Below, piece after piece: positions 51,164-64,000 of a stretch of DNA of 64,000 nt. The stretch covers positions 16,739 to 80,738 of the IMG/VR virus record IMGVR_UViG_3300033571_020726; one strand, 5' to 3'. Source of the DNA: a virus. Within the stretch, counting starts at the first letter, position 1, and every line of letters begins with the position of its first letter. The notes beneath the pieces were generated by a model. That model worked only from the letters and a program-made list of their open reading frames with translations, did no database searches and was not told where the DNA came from. A program made the translations under genes and the position numbers.

Positions 51164-52021
51164 ATGAAAAATAGAAGCCACAATAAAAAAAGAAATGTCG
51201 GCATCATATATGAACAGTTGATTAATTATATGTGTAAATGTATAATTGATAATAATGAAAATGGTGTTTCGAAAATAAGCAATGTCATAAAGGAAAATTT
51301 TAAAAAAGAAACTCAATTACATAGAGAACTAAAATTTTTTAATGCATTAATCCAAACAAAAGGTATTGATCCTAGTTTAGCGACAAATATTATTCAAGAA
51401 GCAAAAAAATCTTGTCAAAAACATTTTTCTGAAGATGATTTAGAAAAAGAAAAATCTGTTTTAATAAAAGAATTAAATTATTCTTTTGGTAAAGGAAATA
51501 TATTTGAAGCAAAGGTTAAAAACTATAAAATGTTAGCAACTGTACAGACATTATTAAATGAATGGCGAAAAGGTTCAAATTCAGACTTTCAAATTACAAC
51601 GCAATATGAAAAACAATTACATGAATGGATGACAGAAAAAGCAGATGAATCAACCCAATTAAATGAAACATATGTACCTAAAAATGTTGATGAATTAACT
51701 TTTAGAATCATGAATCAAAAATTTAATAAAAAATATGATAAAATATTGAACGATGATCAAAAAAAATTAATAAAGCTATTCGTAGAAAATAAATCAGATA
51801 CAAACATAGAACTAACTAATTTATTTGATGAAATAAAAATAAAATCAATTAAGCTATTGGAATCTTTTAATTGCAATAATAAAATTTTAAATGAAAGATA
51901 TGATATAGTTAAAAATAATGTAAAAGCTATTAGCATAAAAGATATTTCTGAAGAAAATCTTAAAAAGTTTTTAACTTTATGCAAATTAAACGACGAATTA
52001 AAAGGTGATATAAATGAGTAG
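51164..52021 (+). CDS. Unrecognised head-region protein between portal and protease
   Basis: 285 residues, mainly helical and Lys/Glu/Asn-rich. Segments: NVGIIYEQLINYMCKCIIDN, HRELKFFNALIQTKGIDPSL and YKMLATVQTLLNEWRKGSNS. No known motif. The 3' end overlaps the protease start by 8 bases. T4 has small prohead core genes (67, 68) between genes 20 and 21; this protein is larger and not recognisably related, but the place is the same, so a prohead core or portal-associated role is a reasonable inference. GAGGA at the end of the portal gene serves as ribosome binding site. Confidence 0.5.
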   Translation: MKNRSHNKKRNVGIIYEQLINYMCKCIIDNNENGVSKISNVIKENFKKETQLHRELKFFNALIQTKGIDPSLATNIIQEAKKSCQKHFSEDDLEKEKSVLIKELNYSFGKGNIFEAKVKNYKMLATVQTLLNEWRKGSNSDFQITTQYEKQLHEWMTEKADESTQLNETYVPKNVDELTFRIMNQKFNKKYDKILNDDQKKLIKLFVENKSDTNIELTNLFDEIKIKSIKLLESFNCNNKILNERYDIVKNNVKAISIKDISEENLKKFLTLCKLNDELKGDINE

Positions 52022-52622
52022 ATTATTAACTGAATGGCTTTCTTTTGATTATGATAAAAAATTGATTCAAGAGGCTAAAATTGGTGGTGGGCCACTAATA
52101 ATGAAAGGTATTTTACAAAAGGCAGATACACTTAATCAAAATGGTCGTGTATATCCAAGAATTATTCTTGAACGTGAAGTTAGAAACTATCAAAAATTTA
52201 TTAAAGAAAATAGAGCATTAGGCGAATTAGATCATCCCGATAGTTCTGTCGTTGAATTAAAAAATGCATCTCATATTATTAGAGAAGCGCATATGGAAGG
52301 TAATATTTGTTATGGTACTGTTGAAATATTAAATACACCATCAGGTAAAATATTACAATCTTTAGTAGAAAGTGGCGTTACACTAGGTATTTCATCAAGA
52401 GGTGTGGGTTCTACAAAACCACAAGGTGAATTACAAATAGTACAAGATGATTTTCAATTAATTTGTTGGGATTTTGTATCAGAACCATCAACACCTGGTG
52501 CCTTTATGATGAAAGAAGGAAAAGAAATTTCATCGAAACAATTACAAGAAATTAATTCATCATTTTTTAACAAAAGTGATAGAATTTATAGAATATTTAA
52601 TGAAATAGGAGATTGGAAATAA
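52014..52622 (+). CDS. gp21: Prohead core protease (gp21-like)
   Basis: 202 residues. It carries the gp21/S78 serine protease pattern: GILQKADTLNQNGRVYPRII, RALGELDHPDSS with His74, and VTLGISSRGVGS with Ser126 or Ser127 as nucleophile, then a VSEPSTPGAF segment. T4 gp21 has ALGELNHP and IPGVSSRGLGS at the same places. Role: after prohead assembly it degrades the scaffold and trims capsid and internal proteins at (L/I)-x-E sites. Candidate sites are seen in neighbouring products. The gene overlaps the previous one by 8 bases and abuts the next (TAA then ATG). Slightly shorter than T4 gp21 (212). Confidence 0.9.
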   Translation: MSRLLTEWLSFDYDKKLIQEAKIGGGPLIMKGILQKADTLNQNGRVYPRIILEREVRNYQKFIKENRALGELDHPDSSVVELKNASHIIREAHMEGNICYGTVEILNTPSGKILQSLVESGVTLGISSRGVGSTKPQGELQIVQDDFQLICWDFVSEPSTPGAFMMKEGKEISSKQLQEINSSFFNKSDRIYRIFNEIGDWK

Positions 52623-53024: not shown

Positions 53025-53591
53025 ATGAAATTAGCATATGATGATTTAAAAGAATTAGTAAAAGAAGCATTAGTAGAAATTTTGCAAGAAGGTTTAGGTA
53101 ATATATTATCAAAAAGTAATCAACATTTAAAATATGATGATGAATTTGAAGAAGAAGTGCCTAAACAAAAAATTAAGCAGCAGCAACCACAAAAAAATAG
53201 TCAAAATATGAAATCAGTATCTGCACCATTTAATAAACAGGTACATGAAAATGTTAAAAAACAACCTACATTAACTAGTATGTATGAATCAAAAACATTA
53301 CAAAAAATGGGAAATCATTTTGAAAAACAAAAAAGTAATGAAAATGTTAAAGTTGGGCAAAAAACAATTAAAGCAATGACAGATGATCCGTTAATGGCAT
53401 CTATATTTGCTGATACAGCTCAAACTACTTTACAAGAACAATTGGTTGCTGAATCTAAGGGTGGTGTAAAAACATTTGATAATGCATCTAGAATAATAGC
53501 GAATAATGATCCTTCTGATATTTTTGGTGATGATATTGCAGGTAATTGGGAATCTTTAGCATTTTCAGCAAATGATTTAAAAAACAAATAA
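53025..53591 (+). CDS. Head-region protein with N-terminal LKELVKEAL helix tag; candidate core/internal protein
   Basis: 188 residues. The N-terminus MKLAYDDLKELVKEALVEIL is a short amphipathic helix followed by QEG, giving an I-L-Q-E step that fits an (L/I)-x-E protease site at about residue 22. The middle is Gln/Lys-rich and probably disordered (PKQKIKQQQPQKNSQN). The C-terminal part (MASIFADTAQTTLQEQ, DIFGDDIAGNWESLAFSAND) is more ordered. Location between protease and scaffold genes fits a prohead core or internal protein. T4 counterparts would be gp67/68 or IPs, but there is no direct sequence match. Confidence 0.5.
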   Translation: MKLAYDDLKELVKEALVEILQEGLGNILSKSNQHLKYDDEFEEEVPKQKIKQQQPQKNSQNMKSVSAPFNKQVHENVKKQPTLTSMYESKTLQKMGNHFEKQKSNENVKVGQKTIKAMTDDPLMASIFADTAQTTLQEQLVAESKGGVKTFDNASRIIANNDPSDIFGDDIAGNWESLAFSANDLKNK

Positions 53592-53656
53592 TTTTTATAA
53601 TTTAAAATATATATAATTATAAATTATTATTAAAAATACAATAATAGGAGAATAAA

Positions 53657-53932
53657 ATGGCTAGAAGATTAACAGATGATATTTTACGTAAAATGATTGC
53701 AGAAGAAAAGCGTCGTTTAGTAGAAACTTTAGAATTACAATTAAAACATCCTAGTGATGCTCATAAAAGAGCTAGAGAAGTGAAAGCTGATGGATTCGCT
53801 GATACAATTACATCTAAAATTGATCATTATAAGGCGATGAAATTGCAAGAATCAGAATTATTGAAACAATACATGAAATTACGTGAAGCTAGAGCTAGAT
53901 TAAAAGCTCAATTATTAAAAGATCTCAAATAA
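53657..53932 (+). CDS. Small basic helical protein in the prohead cluster
   Basis: 91 residues, continuously helical: DDILRKMIAEEKRRLVETLE, ASKIDHYKAMKL-type middle, ESELLKQYMKLREARARLKA. Highly charged, likely a coiled coil. ATAGGAG lies at the correct distance from the ATG. MIAE and LVE steps near the N-terminus are possible protease sites. Its base composition is less AT-biased, typical of the highly expressed head genes around it. Similar in size to T4 gp67/gp68 core proteins, to which no direct match is claimed. Confidence 0.5.
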   Translation: MARRLTDDILRKMIAEEKRRLVETLELQLKHPSDAHKRAREVKADGFADTITSKIDHYKAMKLQESELLKQYMKLREARARLKAQLLKDLK

Positions 53933-54000
53933 AATATTTATTTATTTATATTGCCTACATATTTATATTTAAAAACAATTTAAATTGGAGTTAAATTATT

Positions 54001-54825
54001 ATGAAAAAAGGCACATTTGCTATTACACAAAATCAGCAGGCACAAGCTTTTCATGAAATTTTTAAAAATAATGATGGCGGTGTAAGAGGAAGAATAAAAG
54101 GGATTAATAATACACCAAGTTTAGTATCTTTATTTCCTAAATCACCAATGTATGATACAAATCAGTCTTTAGAAAAAGATCGAGGCAAGTTATTTAATGC
54201 AATTGAAGAATATCAAATTGGTTCTGATAAAAAAAATGATGTTGGCAATTTAAAAGGTATTTTGGATGATGATACAGTATATCTTATGTATAAAAACGTA
54301 ATTGATGGTTATGATGCTATTAGTCCTCATGTTACAGAACAAAGTAATACATCAAATAATTATAATTGGTTATATAGAGAACAACCAATGGATATGAATT
54401 TTAATTATTTAAAGCCAAATGGTGCTGGAAGTTTTAGTCCTTCTTCTCCAACTGCAGCTGCTGCACCTGTAGGATCTAATGCACCTATTCCAAATGCGCC
54501 TGACGATAAACCTTTTTGGGGACATGCTAATTTACAAGTTCCATCAGTTAATCCATTAGAAGTTCGTGATGATCATGAAAATAAACCACAATTACAACGA
54601 GGGTCAGGCGGTTTTGGTACATCTAAGGCTGTATCAAATCGAGCATTTGCATCACAAGAAAAAATTGGATCTTATTTTACAAATGCTTATGTAAATAATG
54701 TAAATAATACAGATAGATTTAATATTTGGGCAGGAAAATCAATTGATGATGAAGCAAATGTCACAACAGGTGATAATGCTCCTTATATTGGTGATGTTGA
54801 TAACGATGGTAATCCAAAACAATAA
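54001..54825 (+). CDS. Head-cluster protein, Asn/Pro/Ala-containing, function unknown
   Basis: 274 residues. GGAG lies 10 bases before the ATG. Opening: KKGTFAITQNQQAQAFHEIF, a G/R patch (GGVRGRIKGINNTP), then SLVSLFPKSP. The middle carries a PTAAAAPVGSNAPIPNAPDD linker and the end a GDVDNDGNPKQ tail. It appears partly disordered. The next gene begins 12 bases downstream and has similar Gly/Asn/Pro character, so the two may be partners. No known family. Role inferred from location in the capsid assembly cluster. Confidence 0.45.
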   Translation: MKKGTFAITQNQQAQAFHEIFKNNDGGVRGRIKGINNTPSLVSLFPKSPMYDTNQSLEKDRGKLFNAIEEYQIGSDKKNDVGNLKGILDDDTVYLMYKNVIDGYDAISPHVTEQSNTSNNYNWLYREQPMDMNFNYLKPNGAGSFSPSSPTAAAAPVGSNAPIPNAPDDKPFWGHANLQVPSVNPLEVRDDHENKPQLQRGSGGFGTSKAVSNRAFASQEKIGSYFTNAYVNNVNNTDRFNIWAGKSIDDEANVTTGDNAPYIGDVDNDGNPKQ

Positions 54826-54837
54826 TAAGGTGAAAAA

Positions 54838-55578
54838 ATGATTTCAAGTCCTGGTAATAATGCGTCATTATATTTAGGTCATCCTGAACAACCTGTCAAA
54901 AAGCCTGGTATTGGAAAAACATTAAATATGGGTGATATTTATTCTAGCGCTGATGTTGGTGAATTTGATGATAGAGATAATCGTGAGCAAGATGATGTTG
55001 AACATTTAGATGATATTCCTTTTAATTATAAAACGAATTATTCATTAAATCCTAGATTATCGACAGCAAATCAATATGGTTCAGCTACTGCAGGTGGTTT
55101 AGGTTCATATGCAGGTGCAATAGGACAGATTGGTAATAGTGTAAGTGAAAGTATATTGAGAGAATATATTTCAGAAATGATTCTGATTGAAAATTCTATA
55201 GGTAGAATACCTGGTTATAATTACTTAGGTATTGGTAATAGTCAGGTTAAAAATAATTTAGGTTCTAAAAATGTGAAAAGTATAAATATTGTTGGTGGTA
55301 GTATGACTGGTGCTGATAATAATTTTCAAGGGTATAGAAAAACTAAAAGGCGTGGCGACGGTAAAACATTTACTGGTGGTAAAGCTATTGAATTACAAAA
55401 AAATCAAAATGATCCTGAAGGTAGAAATGTTATATCTGATCAGGAAAAATTTGAATCTGGAATCGGTATGTCTACATACGACTTATTTACTAATTGGGCA
55501 GAAGATCAAGACAATATTAATTTAAAAGATAGAAAAAAAGAAGAGAAAAAAATAAAAAATAATTCTTCTAATATTTAA
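54838..55578 (+). CDS. Head-cluster protein with internal SESILREYISEMILIE helix
   Basis: 246 residues, mostly polar and Gly/Asn/Asp-rich (PGNNASLYLGHPEQPVKKPG, LGSYAGAIGQIGNSVS). One amphipathic helix, SESILREYISEMILIENS, lies near residues 100-118. It resembles the basic helix tags at the N-termini of neighbouring proteins and contains I-S-E and I-L-I-E steps that could be protease sites. The C-terminus is strongly basic/acidic (DRKKEEKKIKNNSS). An overlapping frame at 55310-55525 is not supported. Likely an assembly or core protein; unknown family. Confidence 0.45.
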   Translation: MISSPGNNASLYLGHPEQPVKKPGIGKTLNMGDIYSSADVGEFDDRDNREQDDVEHLDDIPFNYKTNYSLNPRLSTANQYGSATAGGLGSYAGAIGQIGNSVSESILREYISEMILIENSIGRIPGYNYLGIGNSQVKNNLGSKNVKSINIVGGSMTGADNNFQGYRKTKRRGDGKTFTGGKAIELQKNQNDPEGRNVISDQEKFESGIGMSTYDLFTNWAEDQDNINLKDRKKEEKKIKNNSSNI

Positions 55579-55599
55579 TATAATAAAAAGGTTGAATTT

Positions 55600-56013
55600 A
55601 TGACTGTAATTAAACAAAATTCAATAAAAAAATTAATTAAAGAATCTGTTATTAAAAATTTATTAACAGAAATTAAAAATGATATTGAAAAAGAAGAAAA
55701 AGAAGAAAAAGAAGAATCAAAAAAACAAAATAAATCAAAAAAAGGTTCATGGCGTAAAAACAAGCCAGATCCTTTACATCATTTGAGTGGAAGTAAAAAA
55801 TCTTTTAATTCAACATCTTCTAAAAAAGAAAAATCTATTAAAAAAGATAATGAAAAAAATTTTGAAGAAGATAAAAACGAAGAAATGAAAAAGTATGGTG
55901 AAACATTTGATGATGAAGATTATGAATGTGAAGAAGATTGCGAAGATTGTGATGATTGTAATAAACAAAGATTAAAAGAGCATCAGAAAATATTGGATGA
56001 AATATTTAATTAA
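55600..56013 (+). CDS. Highly charged small protein with N-terminal helix tag
   Basis: 137 residues. The N-terminus, MTVIKQNSIKKLIKESVIKN, continues as LLTEIKND, a helical tag with an L-L-T-E step fitting a gp21-type (L/I)-x-E site near residue 24. After that the sequence is extremely charged (KEEKEEKEESKKQNKSKKGS) and ends with a Cys/Asp/Glu cluster (CEEDCEDCDDC) that could bind metal. AAAAGG is the ribosome binding site. Such a layout (tag, then a disordered charged body) is what a packaged or core protein would look like. The coding call is good; the role is inferred. Confidence 0.5.
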   Translation: MTVIKQNSIKKLIKESVIKNLLTEIKNDIEKEEKEEKEESKKQNKSKKGSWRKNKPDPLHHLSGSKKSFNSTSSKKEKSIKKDNEKNFEEDKNEEMKKYGETFDDEDYECEEDCEDCDDCNKQRLKEHQKILDEIFN

Positions 56014-58050: not shown

Positions 58051-59901
58051 ATGTCAAGTTATACATTACAATCATTAACTGAAGGTATCAGACAACGTCA
58101 CGTTGGTACACAAAATAAAAGATTAGTCGAAAAGTGGTCACGTACAGGTCTTCTTAGAGGTCTTGACGATGTAAATCGTGAAAATATGTCTCAACTTTTA
58201 GAAAATCAAGCATCACAACTTCTTCGTGAATCAAATACACTCGGAAGTGATGCTGTTAAAGGTTTCACAAGCATTGCATTCCCAATCGTTCGTCGCGTAT
58301 TCGGTGGTCTAGTAGCTAATGAATTAGTTTCAATTCAACCAATGAGCCTTCCTTCCGGTCTTCTATTTTATCTAGATTATACATACGGTTCAAATGTTGG
58401 TGGTGATCAAAGCAGCACTGCTAATGCAGATGCTACAGCAACATATAAATCTGGTGAATCTATTTATAATAATCCTACTGGAAAAGATATTCAAAAAGGT
58501 TCTTTTGCAAATGGTGGTCAATATGATTTATTAGGTTCAGGTTTTTCAAAAGTGCATAGTTCTGCACCAAATGTTGCAACTACTGTTATTGTTACATCAG
58601 CTGGCGCAAAAGATGCAGCAGGCGCTTTACAAACATTAGATTTAACAAATGCAACAGTACAAAAGTTATTACAATTTGATCAACAAGTGTTAGATTCAGG
58701 AACTGATTGGTCTGGTATATTAATTCCTACTAGTGCTTTAACTGATTTAGATAAAAGTCATGTGAAAGAAATTAATTTACATGGCTTCGCAACTGGAACT
58801 GCTCCTGCTGATTTAACAACAGCGTATCAATCAGGAAAAGCTAAAAATTTACGTAGATTAAATCAATTAGTAAAAGTAGACGGTACTACAATTACACCTG
58901 ATTTCTTTAATCCTAATCACGTTTTATGCATTGTAAAAAAAGCAGCTTGGGATTCATCAGCAGTGGGAGCTAATGTTGATGTTTCTTATGTAAAAGAAGA
59001 ATCAATTAGTATAACAGGTAGTGGTAATCCAGAAACTGTTATCAAACCTGATTTTGAATCAAATTTTGATGGCGATGATGCTGGTAAAATGGGTGGAGCT
59101 GGTATTACACCTGTAATTCCTGAAATTGATATTAAGATTGAGTCAATTCCAGTGACTACCACAACACGTAAGTTAAGAGCTCGTTGGTCACCCGAACTTG
59201 CGCAAGATCTTAATGCATATCATTCATTGGATGCTGAAGTTGAATTAACTCAAATTCTTTCTGAACAAATTGCATTGGAAATTGATCGTGAGATTTTGAA
59301 TGATCTTTTGACACAAGCTCAAGGTGCAAACTTCTTCTGGTCACGTGCTCCTGGTAAGTTTGTGAATAAGAGAACTGGTGCTGAAATTGCTCGTGTATCA
59401 ACATTGACACCTGGACCTGCATTTACTGGTACAGTTCGTGAATGGTATGAAACATTGACTGAAACCATTATTGACGTTGCAAATGAAATTCATAGAAAGA
59501 CATTACGTGGTTCAGCAAACTTTATCGTTGTATCACCTGATGTTGCTACAGTATTGGAAGCATCTGTATTGTATCGTCCTTCATATTCAATTGATGGTGA
59601 TGGTCAAGTTGCAACACCATTTACAATGGGTGCAGAGAAGATTGGTACATTGAGTAATCGTTTTACTGTATATAAGGATCCATATTTCCCAAGAAATAAG
59701 ATTCTTGTTGGTTACAAGGGTGGTAGCTATCTTGAAACTGGGTTTGTATATGCTCCTTATGTTCCATTGATCGTTACTCCTACCATTTTTGCTCCAGAAG
59801 ATTTTACACCTCGTAAGGGCGTAATGACACGTTATGGTAAGAAGATGGTACGTGCAGATTTTTATGGTACAGTAACATGTATGGATATGAATATTATTTA
59901 A
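58051..59901 (+). CDS. gp23: Major capsid protein (gp23-like)
   Basis: 616 residues. The N-terminal propeptide ends at QLLRE-SN: an (L/I)-x-E site with Glu60, closely matching T4 gp23, which is cut after residue 65. The mature start, VKGFTSIAFPIVRRVFGGLV, then ANELVSIQPMSLPSGLLFYL, is typical of gp23. The C-terminal half has IPVTTTTRKLRARWSPELAQ, DLNAYHSLDAEVELTQILSE and FIVVSPDVATVLEASV. T4 gp23 has 521 residues; the extra lies mainly between about 115 and 340, a variable Ser/Gly/Asp insertion that may be surface-exposed. Codon use is the least AT-biased in the window, fitting very high expression. HK97-fold hexamer-forming shell protein; followed by a strong terminator. Confidence 0.93.
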   Translation: MSSYTLQSLTEGIRQRHVGTQNKRLVEKWSRTGLLRGLDDVNRENMSQLLENQASQLLRESNTLGSDAVKGFTSIAFPIVRRVFGGLVANELVSIQPMSLPSGLLFYLDYTYGSNVGGDQSSTANADATATYKSGESIYNNPTGKDIQKGSFANGGQYDLLGSGFSKVHSSAPNVATTVIVTSAGAKDAAGALQTLDLTNATVQKLLQFDQQVLDSGTDWSGILIPTSALTDLDKSHVKEINLHGFATGTAPADLTTAYQSGKAKNLRRLNQLVKVDGTTITPDFFNPNHVLCIVKKAAWDSSAVGANVDVSYVKEESISITGSGNPETVIKPDFESNFDGDDAGKMGGAGITPVIPEIDIKIESIPVTTTTRKLRARWSPELAQDLNAYHSLDAEVELTQILSEQIALEIDREILNDLLTQAQGANFFWSRAPGKFVNKRTGAEIARVSTLTPGPAFTGTVREWYETLTETIIDVANEIHRKTLRGSANFIVVSPDVATVLEASVLYRPSYSIDGDGQVATPFTMGAEKIGTLSNRFTVYKDPYFPRNKILVGYKGGSYLETGFVYAPYVPLIVTPTIFAPEDFTPRKGVMTRYGKKMVRADFYGTVTCMDMNII

Positions 59902-59938: not shown

Positions 59939-59962
59939 AAAGTCGCGAAAGCGACTTTTTTT
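59939..59962 (+). terminator. Strong intrinsic terminator after the major capsid gene
   Basis: 8-base stem AAAGTCGC / GCGACTTT with a GAAA tetraloop (59947-59950), followed by a T-run. G/C-rich against a very AT-rich background. It is the only strong terminator seen and separates the head operon from the three paralogues that follow. Confidence 0.9.
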
Positions 59963-60017: not shown

Positions 60018-61502
60018 ATGATAATACAAAGAAAATATTTAAAAAAAATAATCAATAAAAGTTTAAAAGAGACTAGATTTTTTTTATCACACCCTTATGA
60101 AAAATTAAAAGACGAATCAAAGATTGCATTATCAAGATATTGGGTTAACTTTTTTAATTTCTATTTAAGAGATCTTAAAAAAAGAAATGAAGGTAAGCTT
60201 CCACAGCAAAGAAAGGAAGATGAAAATGTTATTGGTATTAAAAGTAATGAAGACTTATATGCTTTTGATATTAGAAATTTTAAATTGTTTAATTTAAATA
60301 TACAATCAGAACTTGATGAATTAACAGATAATCGTGTTGAAGAATATTGTGAAAAAAATAATATTGATTTATCACAAGCTGATTTAAATTTAATTGATAG
60401 AAAAATGAGTGTAATATCTTTTATAAAATTACCAATTAGTATATCTTTGTATTTTTCTGATGTTATGATTGATAAGATGAATAAGGTTTTAAAGGATTCT
60501 TCTATTACTACAATTAGGACTATAGATGAATTAAAATATATATTATCAATTTCAGAATTAGTGAGTAGTGATTCTACTTTATCTGCAGCTAGAATGTCTG
60601 CTGCTGTAGGTTATCCAAGTCAATCATTTGATGATGAAGATTATTTAAATGCAAAACAAAATTCAGATGAAAATATTGTAAAATTTTTAAGAGAGATAGC
60701 TAGTCCAAGTACGTTTATTTCATTTATAGATGCTTATGAATTTAATTTGGATTGGAATGAAGATAGTGAGGATCGTGAAAATGAATATTTACCTCCTAAA
60801 CTTAGTTTAAATCCAAATGCTACATTTGGTACTCCACATGCTATATATGGTTATCCTTTTGATAAGGAAAATTGCGAACTTTTTTTAAGGACAGGTAAAC
60901 CAACATATTCTAAGTTTGCTACAAATAGAAATTATTTCCATTTAATTAAAATAGATTTAAATAATCCACGTGTTATTCTTTTTAAAGCAGATGGTACATG
61001 TAATCATGATATTAATAAAAAAGAGTATTTTAGCAGAATAAAAGAATTACATCGTTTATATAAACTTTTTTATAGGGATATGAGTAAAGATAATGAATAT
61101 ATCGATAAAAGAGATGAAGAACGTGAAATTTTACAAGATAATCTTAATGTTGTATATAGTGAATTTATAGATTTTATGAGAGATGGTATGTTTATTGATG
61201 AATATGCACGTTTAAAAAATAATCCTTTTTATTTATTATATAGATTTGCAGGATATTTATCAAGATTACAAGGTTTAGATGCGTTTGATGAAGCAGCATT
61301 AGAAAGTAATAAAAAAAATAAAGGACATTCAGAATTTTCTGCTTTATTACTACACTCAATTGGTATTGATTGTATTGTTGATAGAGGTTTAGGTATTGTA
61401 CATCGTAATGAACCTTCACAAGCACATATTTTAACATTTAATAATAGCAGTTCAACTATTTATAAATATTTAGGCACATATAAAAATTTTAAGAATAAAT
61501 AA
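60018..61502 (+). CDS. First of three tandem paralogues: candidate packaged internal protein with propeptide
   Basis: 494 residues. The N-terminus MIIQRKYLKKIINKSLKETR is a basic amphipathic helix with an L-K-E step at residues 16-18, a likely prohead protease site. The core (about 230-345) contains REIASPSTFISFIDAYEF, LNPNATFGTPHAIYGYPFDK (from 264), FATNRNYFHLIKIDLN and LFKADGTCNHDI. The C-terminal part has SIGIDCIVDRGLGIVHRNEP (His462, Glu465) and QAHILTF, ending in YLGTYKNF. The next two genes share the same motifs in the same order. No family is recognised. The H...Y-x-Y...E arrangement faintly recalls ADP-ribosyltransferases (T4 packages one, Alt), but this is speculative. AAAAAGG is the ribosome binding site. 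Confidence 0.6.
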   Translation: MIIQRKYLKKIINKSLKETRFFLSHPYEKLKDESKIALSRYWVNFFNFYLRDLKKRNEGKLPQQRKEDENVIGIKSNEDLYAFDIRNFKLFNLNIQSELDELTDNRVEEYCEKNNIDLSQADLNLIDRKMSVISFIKLPISISLYFSDVMIDKMNKVLKDSSITTIRTIDELKYILSISELVSSDSTLSAARMSAAVGYPSQSFDDEDYLNAKQNSDENIVKFLREIASPSTFISFIDAYEFNLDWNEDSEDRENEYLPPKLSLNPNATFGTPHAIYGYPFDKENCELFLRTGKPTYSKFATNRNYFHLIKIDLNNPRVILFKADGTCNHDINKKEYFSRIKELHRLYKLFYRDMSKDNEYIDKRDEEREILQDNLNVVYSEFIDFMRDGMFIDEYARLKNNPFYLLYRFAGYLSRLQGLDAFDEAALESNKKNKGHSEFSALLLHSIGIDCIVDRGLGIVHRNEPSQAHILTFNNSSSTIYKYLGTYKNFKNK

Positions 61503-61510
61503 TTTTATAA

Positions 61511-61560
61511 TTTCCAATATAATTAATAAAAAAAGTGTTTTATTATGATTATATTGGAAA
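61511..61560 (+). promoter_or_regulatory. Hairpin whose loop holds the ribosome binding region and start codon of the second paralogue
   Basis: 13-base perfect arms TTTCCAATATAAT (61511-61523) and ATTATATTGGAAA (61548-61560). The 24-base loop contains AAAAAAAGTG and ends exactly with the ATG (61545-61547). The right arm is coding. Each arm contains two G-C pairs. A stem enclosing the initiation region could regulate ribosome access or protect the transcript (inference). Confidence 0.55.
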
Positions 61561-62861
61561 AAGATTTAAAAAAAATTATAAAAAATAAATTATTAGAGAC
61601 AAGATTTCTATTATCTTCAGACTATGAATATTACAATAATAAATATAAAAAATGGCAATTATATTTTACTGATATTTTACCTAGAATTATTTTAAATAAT
61701 ACTGAAGCTATATTTATCGATAATGATCAATTTTATTTAGCAGATTTTAAAAATATTGATATTAAAAAAATAACAACTGATGAATATGAATCAATTTTAA
61801 GAAGTGGTGGTCTAGTTCCAATAAGAATTTATTTACCTACAACATTATTTCAAATATATATGAATAACTTCAGAACAGTTAAAGAAAGTGAATATTTAAA
61901 AACTGGGTCTTATAGACCATCTGATAATACAAAAATACTTGAAATTGAAGATTTATATAAAATATTTGAAAAAATAAAATTAATGTCATCTGATGAGCGT
62001 ATTGATGTTAATTTAAATGCAAGTAATATGTCAAAAAATATAGGTAGTCAATATAATTTTAAAAATTTTAATTCAATAGAAGAAATGCAAGATTATTTAT
62101 ATGATATAGCAGGTCCAGATATTTTTATTACTTTCGCTGATTCTTATAGACTTGATGCAAATGGAAATCCTATAAATCCACAATTTAATTTAAACCCTAA
62201 TGCTACATTTAAAACACCACATGGATTTTATTTTTATCCTTTTGATAAAATTAATGCTAAAGCTTTTATAAATTATGGACAACCAACACGTGCAGAGTTT
62301 GCTGTAGATAGAAATTTTTTTCATTTAGTTAAAGTAGATTTAAGTAATAAAAAAACAATAATTTTTGAAGAAGATGGTACTTGTAATAAAAAAATATCAT
62401 ATGAAAATTACATTAAAAATGTAAAAGAATTAATAAGAGTACATGAAGAATTTTTTAAATTAGAAATAAATCACGAAGAAACTTTTAAAAAATTAAATCT
62501 ATTTATGGAAATGTACCATGGAGATTATGAAAATTTAAATGATGATGATTTTGAATCAGGTATTTATTTAGATAATAATAATTTTGTTTCTAATTTATAT
62601 AAATTTGCTTTTTTTCTATCTTTTAAAGATTTTACAGATATAAACAGAAAATATTTATTTGATGAAGATGATGAAGGAAATGTACCTGAATTATTTTCTT
62701 TGTTATTATATTTAATAGGTATTAGATGTGTTATAGATAGAGGTTTATGTATTATTCATGAAAACGAACCTGAACAGATGCATATTATTACTTTTGGCGA
62801 TGATACATCTTTTTATGAATATATTGGTACATTTGATAATTGGTTTAATGCTTACAATTAA
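61545..62861 (+). CDS. Second tandem paralogue: candidate packaged internal protein with propeptide
   Basis: 438 residues. The N-terminus MIILEKDLKKIIKNKLLETR aligns residue for residue with the first paralogue, with the L-L-E step again ending at residue 18. The core reads DIAGPDIFITFADSYRLD, LNPNATFKTPHGFYFYPFDK (from 216), FAVDRNFFHLVKVDLS and FEEDGTCNKKIS. The C-terminus reads LIGIRCVIDRGLCIIHENEP (His405, Glu408) with EQMHIITF and YEYIGTFDNW. It is shorter than the first because the N-terminal variable region (about 20-180) is reduced. Regulated perhaps by a start-codon hairpin. Function unknown; see the first paralogue for possibilities. Confidence 0.6.
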   Translation: MIILEKDLKKIIKNKLLETRFLLSSDYEYYNNKYKKWQLYFTDILPRIILNNTEAIFIDNDQFYLADFKNIDIKKITTDEYESILRSGGLVPIRIYLPTTLFQIYMNNFRTVKESEYLKTGSYRPSDNTKILEIEDLYKIFEKIKLMSSDERIDVNLNASNMSKNIGSQYNFKNFNSIEEMQDYLYDIAGPDIFITFADSYRLDANGNPINPQFNLNPNATFKTPHGFYFYPFDKINAKAFINYGQPTRAEFAVDRNFFHLVKVDLSNKKTIIFEEDGTCNKKISYENYIKNVKELIRVHEEFFKLEINHEETFKKLNLFMEMYHGDYENLNDDDFESGIYLDNNNFVSNLYKFAFFLSFKDFTDINRKYLFDEDDEGNVPELFSLLLYLIGIRCVIDRGLCIIHENEPEQMHIITFGDDTSFYEYIGTFDNWFNAYN

Positions 62862-62928
62862 ATTTAAATTATAATAATTAATTATTTTTAAATTCATAAT
62901 TATAATATTAAAAATAAATGGTAATAAA

Positions 62929-64000
62929 TTGATTCGTAATATAATAAAATTAAAAAACATAATTAAAAAAACTTTAAATGAAACAAAATTTATAATGTCT
63001 CAAAATAAACAAAATATTAAATGGTATGAGTTTTTTTATGAAAATTTATTTTGTAAAAATATTGACGATAATGGAAACATAACACCTTATAAATATTTAA
63101 TTATTGATGATTCATCTGATAAATTTGATTTAGATGGAAATATTTTATTAAATCAAAGATATTTTGATAAAAAATATTATTTAGTACCATACGATCAGCC
63201 TTTAAATGTTGAAGAAATAGATTTTTCAAAAAGATTAAAAATTCTAAGGGAAAATGGCTTTAATGTTAATACTTTATCATTACCATATGATGATATTATT
63301 GGTCTTGAGATAAAAAATATAAATGATTTTAACATGAAATATAAAGAATGTTATAGATTAAAAATTTCAAAAGAAGAAGAATATTTTCCTCAATATTTGG
63401 ATGCTAAAAGTATGTCTGATGTTGTTGAAAAAAAAATAAAATATATACAAATAAACGATAGATTTAAATATAAAAATACTTTATATCATCTTGCAGGTCC
63501 AGATACTTTTATTTCATTTGCTGATCCTTATGAAATTGATCCAGTTAGTTTTCACTATTTATCACCTAAGTTTAGTTTAAATCCTAATGCTACATTCAAT
63601 ACACCTCATGGTTTTTATTTTTATCATTTTGATAAAAAAAATGCACAAAGATTCTATGAATGTGGTATGCCATCACATGCTGATTTTGCTATAGATCGAC
63701 CTTATTTTCATTTGGTAAAAATTGATTTAAACAATCCAAATGTTTTAATATTTAATAAAGACGGAACATCTAATAGAAAAATGTCATCGCAAGAATTCAT
63801 TAAAAATGTAAAAGAATTAATAAGAATACATATAAACTTTTTTGATAAGGAAATTAATTATAAAAAAATATATAATAAATTATTAAATTCATATTATGCA
63901 CTTACAAAATATAATGATAATCAGATCCTTGAAGAAAATCCATTATATCAATTATATAAATTTACTTTTTTATTATCAAGTCATAATATTTCTAGAAATA
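62929..64000 (+). CDS. Third tandem paralogue, cut by the right window edge
   Basis: The frame is open from a TTG at 62929 to the last base, about 357 codons. With TTG as the initiator the start reads (M)IRNIIKLKNIIKKTLNETK, which puts the L-N-E step at residue 18 exactly as in the two genes before. No ATG occurs upstream in frame before the stop at 62875, so TTG is preferred. The core reads HLAGPDTFISFADPYEID, then LNPNATFNTPHGFYFYHFDK (from about 217), FAIDRPYFHLVKIDLN, FNKDGTSNRKMS and KNVKELIRIHINFF, closest to the second paralogue. The C-terminal NEP-x-Q part lies outside the window. Only a weak ribosome binding site (ATGGTAA) is visible. Confidence 0.6.
   Translation, partial: MIRNIIKLKNIIKKTLNETKFIMSQNKQNIKWYEFFYENLFCKNIDDNGNITPYKYLIIDDSSDKFDLDGNILLNQRYFDKKYYLVPYDQPLNVEEIDFSKRLKILRENGFNVNTLSLPYDDIIGLEIKNINDFNMKYKECYRLKISKEEEYFPQYLDAKSMSDVVEKKIKYIQINDRFKYKNTLYHLAGPDTFISFADPYEIDPVSFHYLSPKFSLNPNATFNTPHGFYFYHFDKKNAQRFYECGMPSHADFAIDRPYFHLVKIDLNNPNVLIFNKDGTSNRKMSSQEFIKNVKELIRIHINFFDKEINYKKIYNKLLNSYYALTKYNDNQILEENPLYQLYKFTFLLSSHNISRN

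Follow-up and report, generated by a model that had tools for sequence, protein, structure and literature searches.

The window analysed here is a 64,000-nucleotide stretch of viral DNA whose plus strand carries a head module that includes a gp21-like prohead protease of the Peptidase S77 type (52014–52622; PF03420, E 1e-27; PHROG 207, E 4e-49), the predicted processing enzyme, and a gp23-type major capsid protein (58051–59901; Pfam PF07068, E 1e-77; PHROG 138). An intrinsic terminator with a perfect 8-bp stem and a T tail (59939–59958, plus strand) follows the capsid gene. As the first-pass annotation had proposed, three tandem paralogues lie after this terminator on the same strand: gene 1 (60018–61502; 494 aa), gene 2 (61545–62861; 438 aa), whose structure was predicted, and gene 3 (62929–64000), which begins with TTG and is open at its end. 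The three are present among the open reading frame calls and are homologous in alignment, with pairwise identities of 34–39%; genes 2 and 3 pair in the tree (support 90/88), gene 1 not being placed relative to the copies of a sister phage. Gene 3 breaks off inside its core, where the 80.7-kb contig ends (the window is G000:16739–80738 of 80738). A search for more copies past position 64000 had been suggested; the entire contig holds exactly three, and the window edge is the contig end, with no assembled sequence beyond it.

The first 24 residues align without gaps in all three paralogues, and the pattern M-I-x5-L-K-x-I-I-x3-L-x-E-T-(R/K)-F given for them earlier holds throughout, with L-x-E at residues 16–18. 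We found 16 of these 24 residues to be identical between genes 1 and 2, where shuffled sequences averaged 4.0 and reached at most 10 of 24 (n = 2000); over the next 24 residues the identity is 5 of 24 or less at any offset tried. The predicted capsid-targeting propeptides, taken from the ORFs, the alignment and the comparison of N-termini, are MIIQRKYLKKIINKSLKE in gene 1 (60018–60071), with a predicted cut after E18 and before TRF, MIILEKDLKKIIKNKLLE in gene 2 (61545–61598), followed by TRF, and MIRNIIKLKNIIKKTLNE in gene 3 (62929–62982; TTG start), followed by TKF, all on the plus strand. Residues 2–23 are helical in the AF2 model of gene 2, in keeping with the propeptide predicted for gene 1. 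The paralogues of the sister phage (L145) repeat the tag as MILNEKKLNEIIKKVLKE before SRF and MILTRNKLNKIIKNNLKE before TRF, and unrelated proteins in that phage are also preceded by such an N-terminus. Elsewhere in the window, only 3 of 41 genes have similar N-termini, all of them in the head module, which has 10 genes (P 0.011, for a pattern defined post hoc): a prohead-core candidate at 53025–53591 (MKLAYDDLKELVKEALVEILQE) and two further plus-strand ORFs at 53657–53932 (MARRLTDDILRKMIAEEKRRLVE, followed by T) and 55600–56013 (MTVIKQNSIKKLIKESVIKNLLTE). The T4 late promoter TATAAATA showed no excess (43 against 40 expected).

Behind the tag, the sequences are poorly conserved to about residue 150–190, and this segment probably supplies the choice of target. 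The core that follows contains LNPNATF-x-TPH, FHL-(I/V)-K-(I/V)-DL and DGT as described in the first-pass annotation; NEP-x-Q, claimed alongside them, is found in genes 1 and 2 but not in gene 3, which ends at the contig edge before the D...NEPxQ motif would be reached. An ADP-ribosyltransferase (ART) assignment was proposed from motifs ahead of any structure prediction, and the AlphaFold and Foldseek check that had been recommended for the core returned an ART-like fold. A compact relative was modelled with AF2 at a mean pLDDT of 87. The top PDB match of this model, at E 3.7e-6 and probability 1.00, is 9k3a_B from the pre-ejectosome of cyanophage A4, and nearly all of the next 49 matches are PARP catalytic domains; in BFVD it matches a PolyVal ADP-ribosyltransferase (E 6e-5) as well as numerous proteins of the ART-PolyVal type. 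The gene 2 model likewise finds 9k3a_B at the top (E 3.9e-3), followed by PARP1. The Foldseek TM-scores are low (0.23–0.53 on the best matches) and the rmsd large, and the fold call therefore rests on the consistency of the matches. The C-terminal domain is thus predicted to fold like ADP-ribosyltransferases, the split beta-sheet with helices of that superfamily being seen in the predicted model with modest TM-scores.

Sequence searches of Pfam, PHROGs, NCBIfam, PADLOC and the PDB with the window proteins and their relatives gave no credible family. The earlier remark that the core matches no nameable family accordingly stands for sequence libraries, but not for the predicted fold, which is ART-like. 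Scanning for homologues was fruitless both with gene 1 by itself and with an alignment of the three genes, and tblastn of gene 2 against 50,697 phages gave a single match at chance level. The family was recovered solely by scanning short conserved motifs: degenerate-motif searches found about 160 related ORFs among uncultured phages, and 2 (Rm378p059 and p039) in Rhodothermus phage RM378, which provides a named cultured carrier. When 84,980 genomes of bacteria and archaea were scanned for the exact motif, no true relative appeared; the only matches, three Selenomonas chemotaxis receptors, are due to chance, and a cellular origin thus found no support in this exact-motif scan. The family is large, unnamed and apparently restricted to phages. 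Tandem copies are frequent among the relatives, the copy number per record is variable and the positions are scattered. Some relatives fuse the domain to ParB, GNAT, T7-type kinase or nucleotidyltransferase domains in polyvalent effectors; L079, L098, L103, L089 and L121 qualify as polyvalent proteins, and the window genes do not. A general meaning of the adjoining capsid gene is not supported, as proximity is not enriched across 20 phages (6 of 20 within 10 kb against 4.0 expected, with hand-rounded distances), and clustering with it was rejected as a family trait. An S77 protease accompanies the family more often than it occurs in random contigs (18 of 50 against 3 of 32), but contig size confounds the comparison, which was set aside as support.

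The N-termini of the wider family resemble those of packaged T4 proteins. T4 gp21 cleaves after L/I-x-E, and the first 10 residues of T4 IPIII are enough for packaging (PMC9026906). A [LI]xE at residues 5–25 occurs in 76% of the family against 36% of the other ORFs of the same loci (odds ratio 5.7, P 3e-16), the latter figure marking how common L-x-E near the N-terminus is anyway, and E-[AKRSL]-[RK]-[RKSN]-[NGS] occurs in 40% of family members against 0.7% of the other ORFs. Many relatives start with a T4-type capsid-targeting sequence, such as MKSFSQFLTE/AR (the slash marks the cut) next to MKTYQEFIAE/AR in T4 IPII, and several match the MKTYQEFIAE/A of IPII and IPIII. The window proteins have two attributes of T4-type capsid-targeted internal proteins, namely a short propeptide that ends in L/I-x-E and is kept across otherwise divergent or unrelated, putatively packaged proteins, and a phage that encodes a matching S77 protease of the gp21 type. 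Packaging and cleavage of the three window proteins are strongly predicted.

The putative active site departs from that of known ARTs. In 93 aligned rows the motif-1 residue is S in 59, T in 24, H in 6 and R in 3, hence S or T in 83 of 93, and all three window proteins have S or T where the canonical residue is His (Arg in Alt). The Y, the D and the E-P-x-Q near the last strand are invariant (94–95 of 94–95 rows). The ART-like core of gene 1 (60696–61499, plus strand) has S235 at the canonical-ART His position of motif 1, N265-P266, T272-P-H-A-I-Y277-G-Y279-P, D455 and E465-P-S-Q468; that of gene 2 (62103–62858, plus strand) has T196, N217-P218, T224-P-H-G-F-Y229-F-Y231-P, D398 and E408-P-E-Q411. 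Neither canonical triad, H-Y-E/D or R-S-E, is present in the window proteins. With Ser or Thr in place of the usual catalytic His, catalysis by these ART-like proteins is an inference, and their activity may be altered or lost.

We consider it reasonably likely that the products of the three genes reside inside the head and belong to an unnamed family of ART-like effectors that are tagged, cleaved by the gp21-like protease, injected and active in ART chemistry; they would probably be enzymes that travel in the phage head and enter the bacterium with the DNA to modify it as infection starts. In such a pathway, an amphipathic helix of about 18 residues at the N-terminus, with L-x-E at its end, would pull the protein into the prohead core, where the phage's S77 protease (52014–52622) would cleave after E18 to leave a mature protein starting with T-R/K-F. 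The mature proteins would stay with the packaged DNA and be injected upon infection, and the C-terminal ART-like domain, by its predicted fold, could then use NAD+ or a related nucleotide on host molecules early, like T4 Alt or the PolyVal ARTs. The first-pass proposal of a packaged, gp21-type-cleaved and injected effector family is thus well supported, by the S77 protease in the head module, the T4-type N-termini and effector-domain fusions of relatives and the pre-ejectosome structure match, and stays a prediction. Its further suggestion, that the copies diversified against host targets, stays conjectural.

The replacement of the motif-1 His by Ser/Thr would also fit a packaged and injected pseudo-enzyme, an ART-like scaffold that has lost NAD+ chemistry and acts by binding; it might, for instance, inhibit a host nuclease as IPI does or, as the cyanophage A4 match could suggest, belong to the ejection machinery. 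T4 IPI is indeed a packaged, non-enzymatic inhibitor (PMC9026906), and the nearest solved structure is a structural pre-ejectosome protein of cyanophage A4. The invariant Y, D and E-P-x-Q nevertheless resemble an active site and not a decayed one. Most of the domains that accompany it in polyvalent proteins are enzymes, and AcrIF11 is an example of an ART that is active despite non-canonical residues (PMC12421852). We regard this explanation as unlikely.

We give still less credence to unpackaged cytoplasmic ART-like enzymes made during infection, in which the N-terminal helix would be a mere domain start. T4 does encode ARTs of both kinds, Alt being packaged and ModA and ModB not (PMC5512222), and copies of the family are often distant from head genes; however, no part outside the core is as well conserved as the N-terminus, which also precedes unrelated proteins in the sister phage and in many relatives is a T4 IP-type capsid-targeting sequence. 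The similar N-termini of three head-module ORFs could instead point to a common core-targeting helix on structural or scaffolding prohead core proteins of the gp67/gp68 kind with no effector role. Such a role appears very improbable for a long, globular and confidently folded ART-like core, and the variable copy number, scattered positions and effector-domain fusions are ill-suited to an essential scaffold.

The reading as packaged, ART-like effectors gives the family a sequence signature, a predicted packaging and maturation route and a fold. To our knowledge, few of the proteins inside the heads of large phages have been assigned a function, and many hypothetical proteins of uncultured T4-like and jumbo phages now become a testable class; the N-terminal tag ending in [LI]xE is a simple signature with which to find further injected proteins. 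A broader proposal, for which we see slightly less than an even chance, is that the family is a phage-restricted ART-fold clade with a non-canonical site (S/T...NP...TPxGIYxYP...D...EPxQ) under exchangeable capsid-targeting tags, deployed as multi-copy arsenals in T4-like and jumbo phages and as polyvalent modules elsewhere, that modifies a host molecule or performs an NAD+ reaction unseen in H-Y-E or R-S-E ARTs.

Enzymes that are carried in the head and modify the host have a known example in T4 Alt, and polyvalent proteins are predicted to include others. The nearest solved structure, 9k3a_B, is A-4L ORF27L, a pre-ejectosome 'tail protein' with an ART-like region; unlike the window proteins, it is a podovirus protein of 1717 aa with a canonical HGT motif, readable as YHGTR...GTYFS, and direct alignment of the family profile to it was not significant, with one short match in the expected last-strand region. 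ART-PolyVal (PF18760), of the Tox-ART-HYD2 clade of polyvalent proteins, shares the phage, virion-associated context and the BFVD fold match (E 6e-5), and its last strand, GYDGV...VFxPxQIK, aligns profile to profile with lGYxxVxDxGxGIIHxNEPxQaVF of the family (E 0.0017). Separate PF18760 genes occur in some of the phages that carry the family, and these ARTs bear similar N-terminal tags. The PF18760 profile itself gives no match at E 1; most of the family has no motif-1 His, and the invariant EPxQ is absent as a feature of the PF18760 members examined.

T4 Alt, a head-packaged, injected ADP-ribosyltransferase of the Alt/VIP2 R-S-E clade, likewise belongs to a T4-like phage, has an L/I-x-E propeptide cut by an S77 protease and an ART-like fold, and is delivered with the DNA, the last three features being predicted for the window proteins. 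The family nevertheless lies outside the Alt/VIP2 clade: it matches no ART of Pfam, NCBIfam or PHROG, resembles none of the curated ART families detectably in sequence and has no conserved Arg in motif 1. It has the site S/T...TPxGIYxYP...D...EPxQ instead of R-S-E, and it comes in multi-copy sets and, in other phages, forms one domain within large multidomain proteins. T4 IPI–IPIII are small proteins with an unrelated mature part, and the window tag is a longer (18-residue), lysine-rich helix; what they share is an N-terminal capsid-targeting sequence, ending in I-x-E/A in the T4 proteins, and family members elsewhere carry near-identical tags.

The window covers the final 64,000 nt of a virus record 80,738 nt long. 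Among the genes of its T4-like head module are one for a gp21-like prohead protease of the S77 type (52014-52622) and one for a gp23-type capsid protein (58051-59901), the latter followed by a perfect intrinsic terminator (59939-59958). As the first-pass annotation had described, three related genes lie directly after this terminator on the plus strand: gene 1 (60018-61502; 494 aa), gene 2 (61545-62861; 438 aa), and gene 3 (62929 to the contig end; TTG start, 357 codons). Their proteins are 34-39% identical overall. When the full contig was searched with a profile, exactly these three copies were found; the contig stops within gene 3, and the array may therefore extend further.

As queries in library searches or homologue scans, the window proteins yielded nothing of use. 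We recovered the family by scanning DNA for two short motifs, G-x-x-[IV]-x-H-x-N-E-P-x-Q and T-P-x-G-I-Y-x-Y-P. An HMM built on the matches found 163-167 ORFs in the loci so recovered, some of them a single gene represented by two loci. The window proteins, which were part of the seed, scored strongly (E 2e-58 for gene 2, E 2e-34 for gene 3). Two members, Rm378p059 and p039 of Rhodothermus phage RM378, are annotated as hypothetical. Among 96 non-redundant rows, the Y of TPxGIY (94/94) and an Asp (95/95) are invariant, as are the E, P, and Q of EPxQ (95/95, partly by construction, as rows were chosen for EPxQ); an N-P pair is nearly so (N 88/94, P 86/94). The earlier impression that no known family could be named holds up: searches with the window proteins and relatives found the family in none of Pfam, PHROGs, NCBIfam, and PADLOC. 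When 84,980 bacterial and archaeal genomes were scanned for the exact motif, only chance matches came up, so at that sensitivity the family looks phage-restricted.

An ADP-ribosyltransferase (ART) fold had been hypothesised prior to any structure prediction, on the basis of GIYxY, NEPxQ ahead of a hydrophobic strand, and the H-x-S that some members have. The AlphaFold and Foldseek check proposed in the first-pass annotation predicts an ART-like core. The gene 2 model has pLDDT 83-98 in most blocks of residues 160-300 and 380-438, and its best PDB match (E 3.9e-3, probability 0.91) is 9k3a chain B, from the pre-ejectosome of cyanophage A4; PARP1 comes next. The compact relative L007 (mean pLDDT 87) matches the same chain at E 3.7e-6 and probability 1.00; its next 49 matches are nearly all PARP1/PARP2 catalytic domains (E 0.05-1.4). 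Among predicted viral structures, L007 matches a PolyVal ADP-ribosyltransferase (E 6e-5), polyvalent-associated proteins, MuF fusions, many ART-PolyVal-like proteins, and entries of 472 and 621 aa, lengths that fit the RM378 members. Profile-profile comparison with 14 ART-PolyVal (PF18760) proteins aligned the last-strand region (E 0.0017). Best-match TM-scores are modest (0.23-0.53), and the fold call therefore depends on concordant independent matches, not close superposition.

Chain 9k3a_B is the 1717-aa ORF27L of phage A-4L (cyanophage A4), which near its C-terminus reads LYHGTR...GSGTYFS...LVGVDALTD...LVINPDAVSVI, by eye an ART-like pattern. The protein (L150:20119-25269) was deposited as a pre-ejectosome 'tail protein'; it appears to contain ParB-like and ART-like regions that are absent from the annotation. 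Its C-terminal part is conserved in Pf-WMP3_26.

The gap-free N-terminus previously reported, M-I-x5-L-K-x-I-I-x3-L-x-E-T-[RK]-F, is present in all three window proteins. Over residues 1-24, genes 1 and 2 share 16/24 identities (shuffled maximum 10) and each remaining pair 12/24, against at most 5-6/24 over residues 25-48 at all offsets tried. AlphaFold models residues 2-23 as a low-confidence helix. A sister phage (IMG/VR 3300033571_024432, 116.7 kb) carries the same tag, a predicted capsid-targeting propeptide, on a tandem pair (L145:7868 and 9552; MILNEKKLNEIIKKVLKE followed by SRF and MILTRNKLNKIIKNNLKE followed by TRF) and on an unrelated gene (L006:3-608, minus strand; MIIKLADFKKIIRENILFETKY). 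Elsewhere in the window, tag-like N-termini occur only in three head-module genes, 53025, 53657, and 55600 (P 0.011, for a pattern composed once the paralogues had been seen).

These small head-module ORFs (within 53025-56013) have no database matches and look like prohead core proteins that begin with the same kind of helix. The unrelated sister-phage protein also occurs at L144:2116-2769 (minus strand), with the motif TKWCTA; the L006 copy has the propeptide MII...II...x-x-E-T-K as on family members, making it a candidate second packaged family. A 489-aa protein adjoining the tandem pair (L145:11381-12850, minus strand; N-terminus MSDIKIINESQIKKIIIEKILKELNQ) is another candidate tag bearer. 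At L145:3063-6063, a ribonucleotide reductase gene appears interrupted by an intein-like insert with a GIY-YIG-type endonuclease.

In other phages, many members begin with a recognisable T4 internal-protein tag, for example MKSFSQFLTEARKNP (L072), MKSFNQFLVEARRNP (L126), and MKTFRTFLTEARRNP (L080), comparable to T4 IPII (MKTYQEFIAEARV) and IPIII (MKTYQEFIAEASV). T4 gp21 cleaves after L/I-x-E, and the first 10 residues of IPIII are enough for packaging (PMC9026906). An [LI]xE ending at residue 5-25 is found in 91/120 members versus 211/594 of the remaining ORFs in those loci (odds ratio 5.7; P 3e-16, which overstates independence because members are related), and E-[AKRSL]-[RK]-[RKSN]-[NGS] in 40% versus 0.7%. 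The window tag is a longer, lysine-rich variant, so the capsid-targeting argument there is made by analogy and from the local protease.

Fifty records, often fragmentary, contain the family. A 561-kb genome has the maximum of 11 matched pieces, about nine copies as some genes were matched in two pieces; the sister phage has six pieces, and tandem pairs recur (L007, L028, L031, L037, L045, L059, L100, L106, and L135). A gp23-type capsid gene is present in 21/50 records and S77 in 18/50, versus S77 in 3/32 randomly drawn contigs, a comparison confounded by their smaller size. Closeness to the capsid gene was not significantly above chance (6/20 records within 10 kb; 4.0 expected).

In other phages the family domain also occurs as a module within polyvalent-type proteins, which are thought to be packaged, injected, early effectors (PMC5512222). 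The 1841-aa L079 protein combines a ParB domain (922-981), a T7-type kinase (about 993-1196), and the family domain (1196-1439); L098 joins GNAT, family domain, and ParB, L103 a nucleotidyltransferase and family domain, and L089 and L121 are further polyvalent-type cases. In L079:3385-8907 and L098:3315-5903, repeated linkers between domains ('QGVAEG' or 'xEARxNPxQN'; hydrophobic-x-E then G or A) look like those of a polyprotein cut by a prohead-type protease. PF18760 ARTs occur in 11/36 tested records, in several (G013, G015, G023, G033, and G035) as separate genes within a few kb of family members. Those ARTs (L276-L295) have similar N-terminal tags, such as MRFIELLE, MREWINLFE, and MREFIEIVE, and at least five in the 578-kb phage G031 score above the cut-off.

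The main caveat on an enzymatic role is the catalytic-His position, which is S235 in gene 1, T196 in gene 2, and S or T in 83/93 family rows. The proteins may be pseudo-enzymes that act by binding, although AcrIF11 provides a precedent for ARTs active with non-canonical residues (PMC12421852). The analysis demonstrates an S77 protease gene, a shared N-terminal tag, a family of related proteins, effector fusions of that family in other phages and, as a prediction, the ART-like fold. The most likely course, which is inferred, is that the tag would direct the window proteins into the prohead and the S77 protease would remove it after E18. The mature proteins would then stay with the DNA and be injected, and the ART-like core, presumably using NAD+, would modify a host molecule early in infection.

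Packaged ARTs are an established theme to which T4 Alt belongs. One survey concludes that the context of about 44% of phage ARTs suggests packaging; its main text does not name RM378 (PMC9503650). Packaged ARTs themselves being known, what is new is a large clade, distinct in sequence, whose signature is non-canonical and whose delivery tag is clear.
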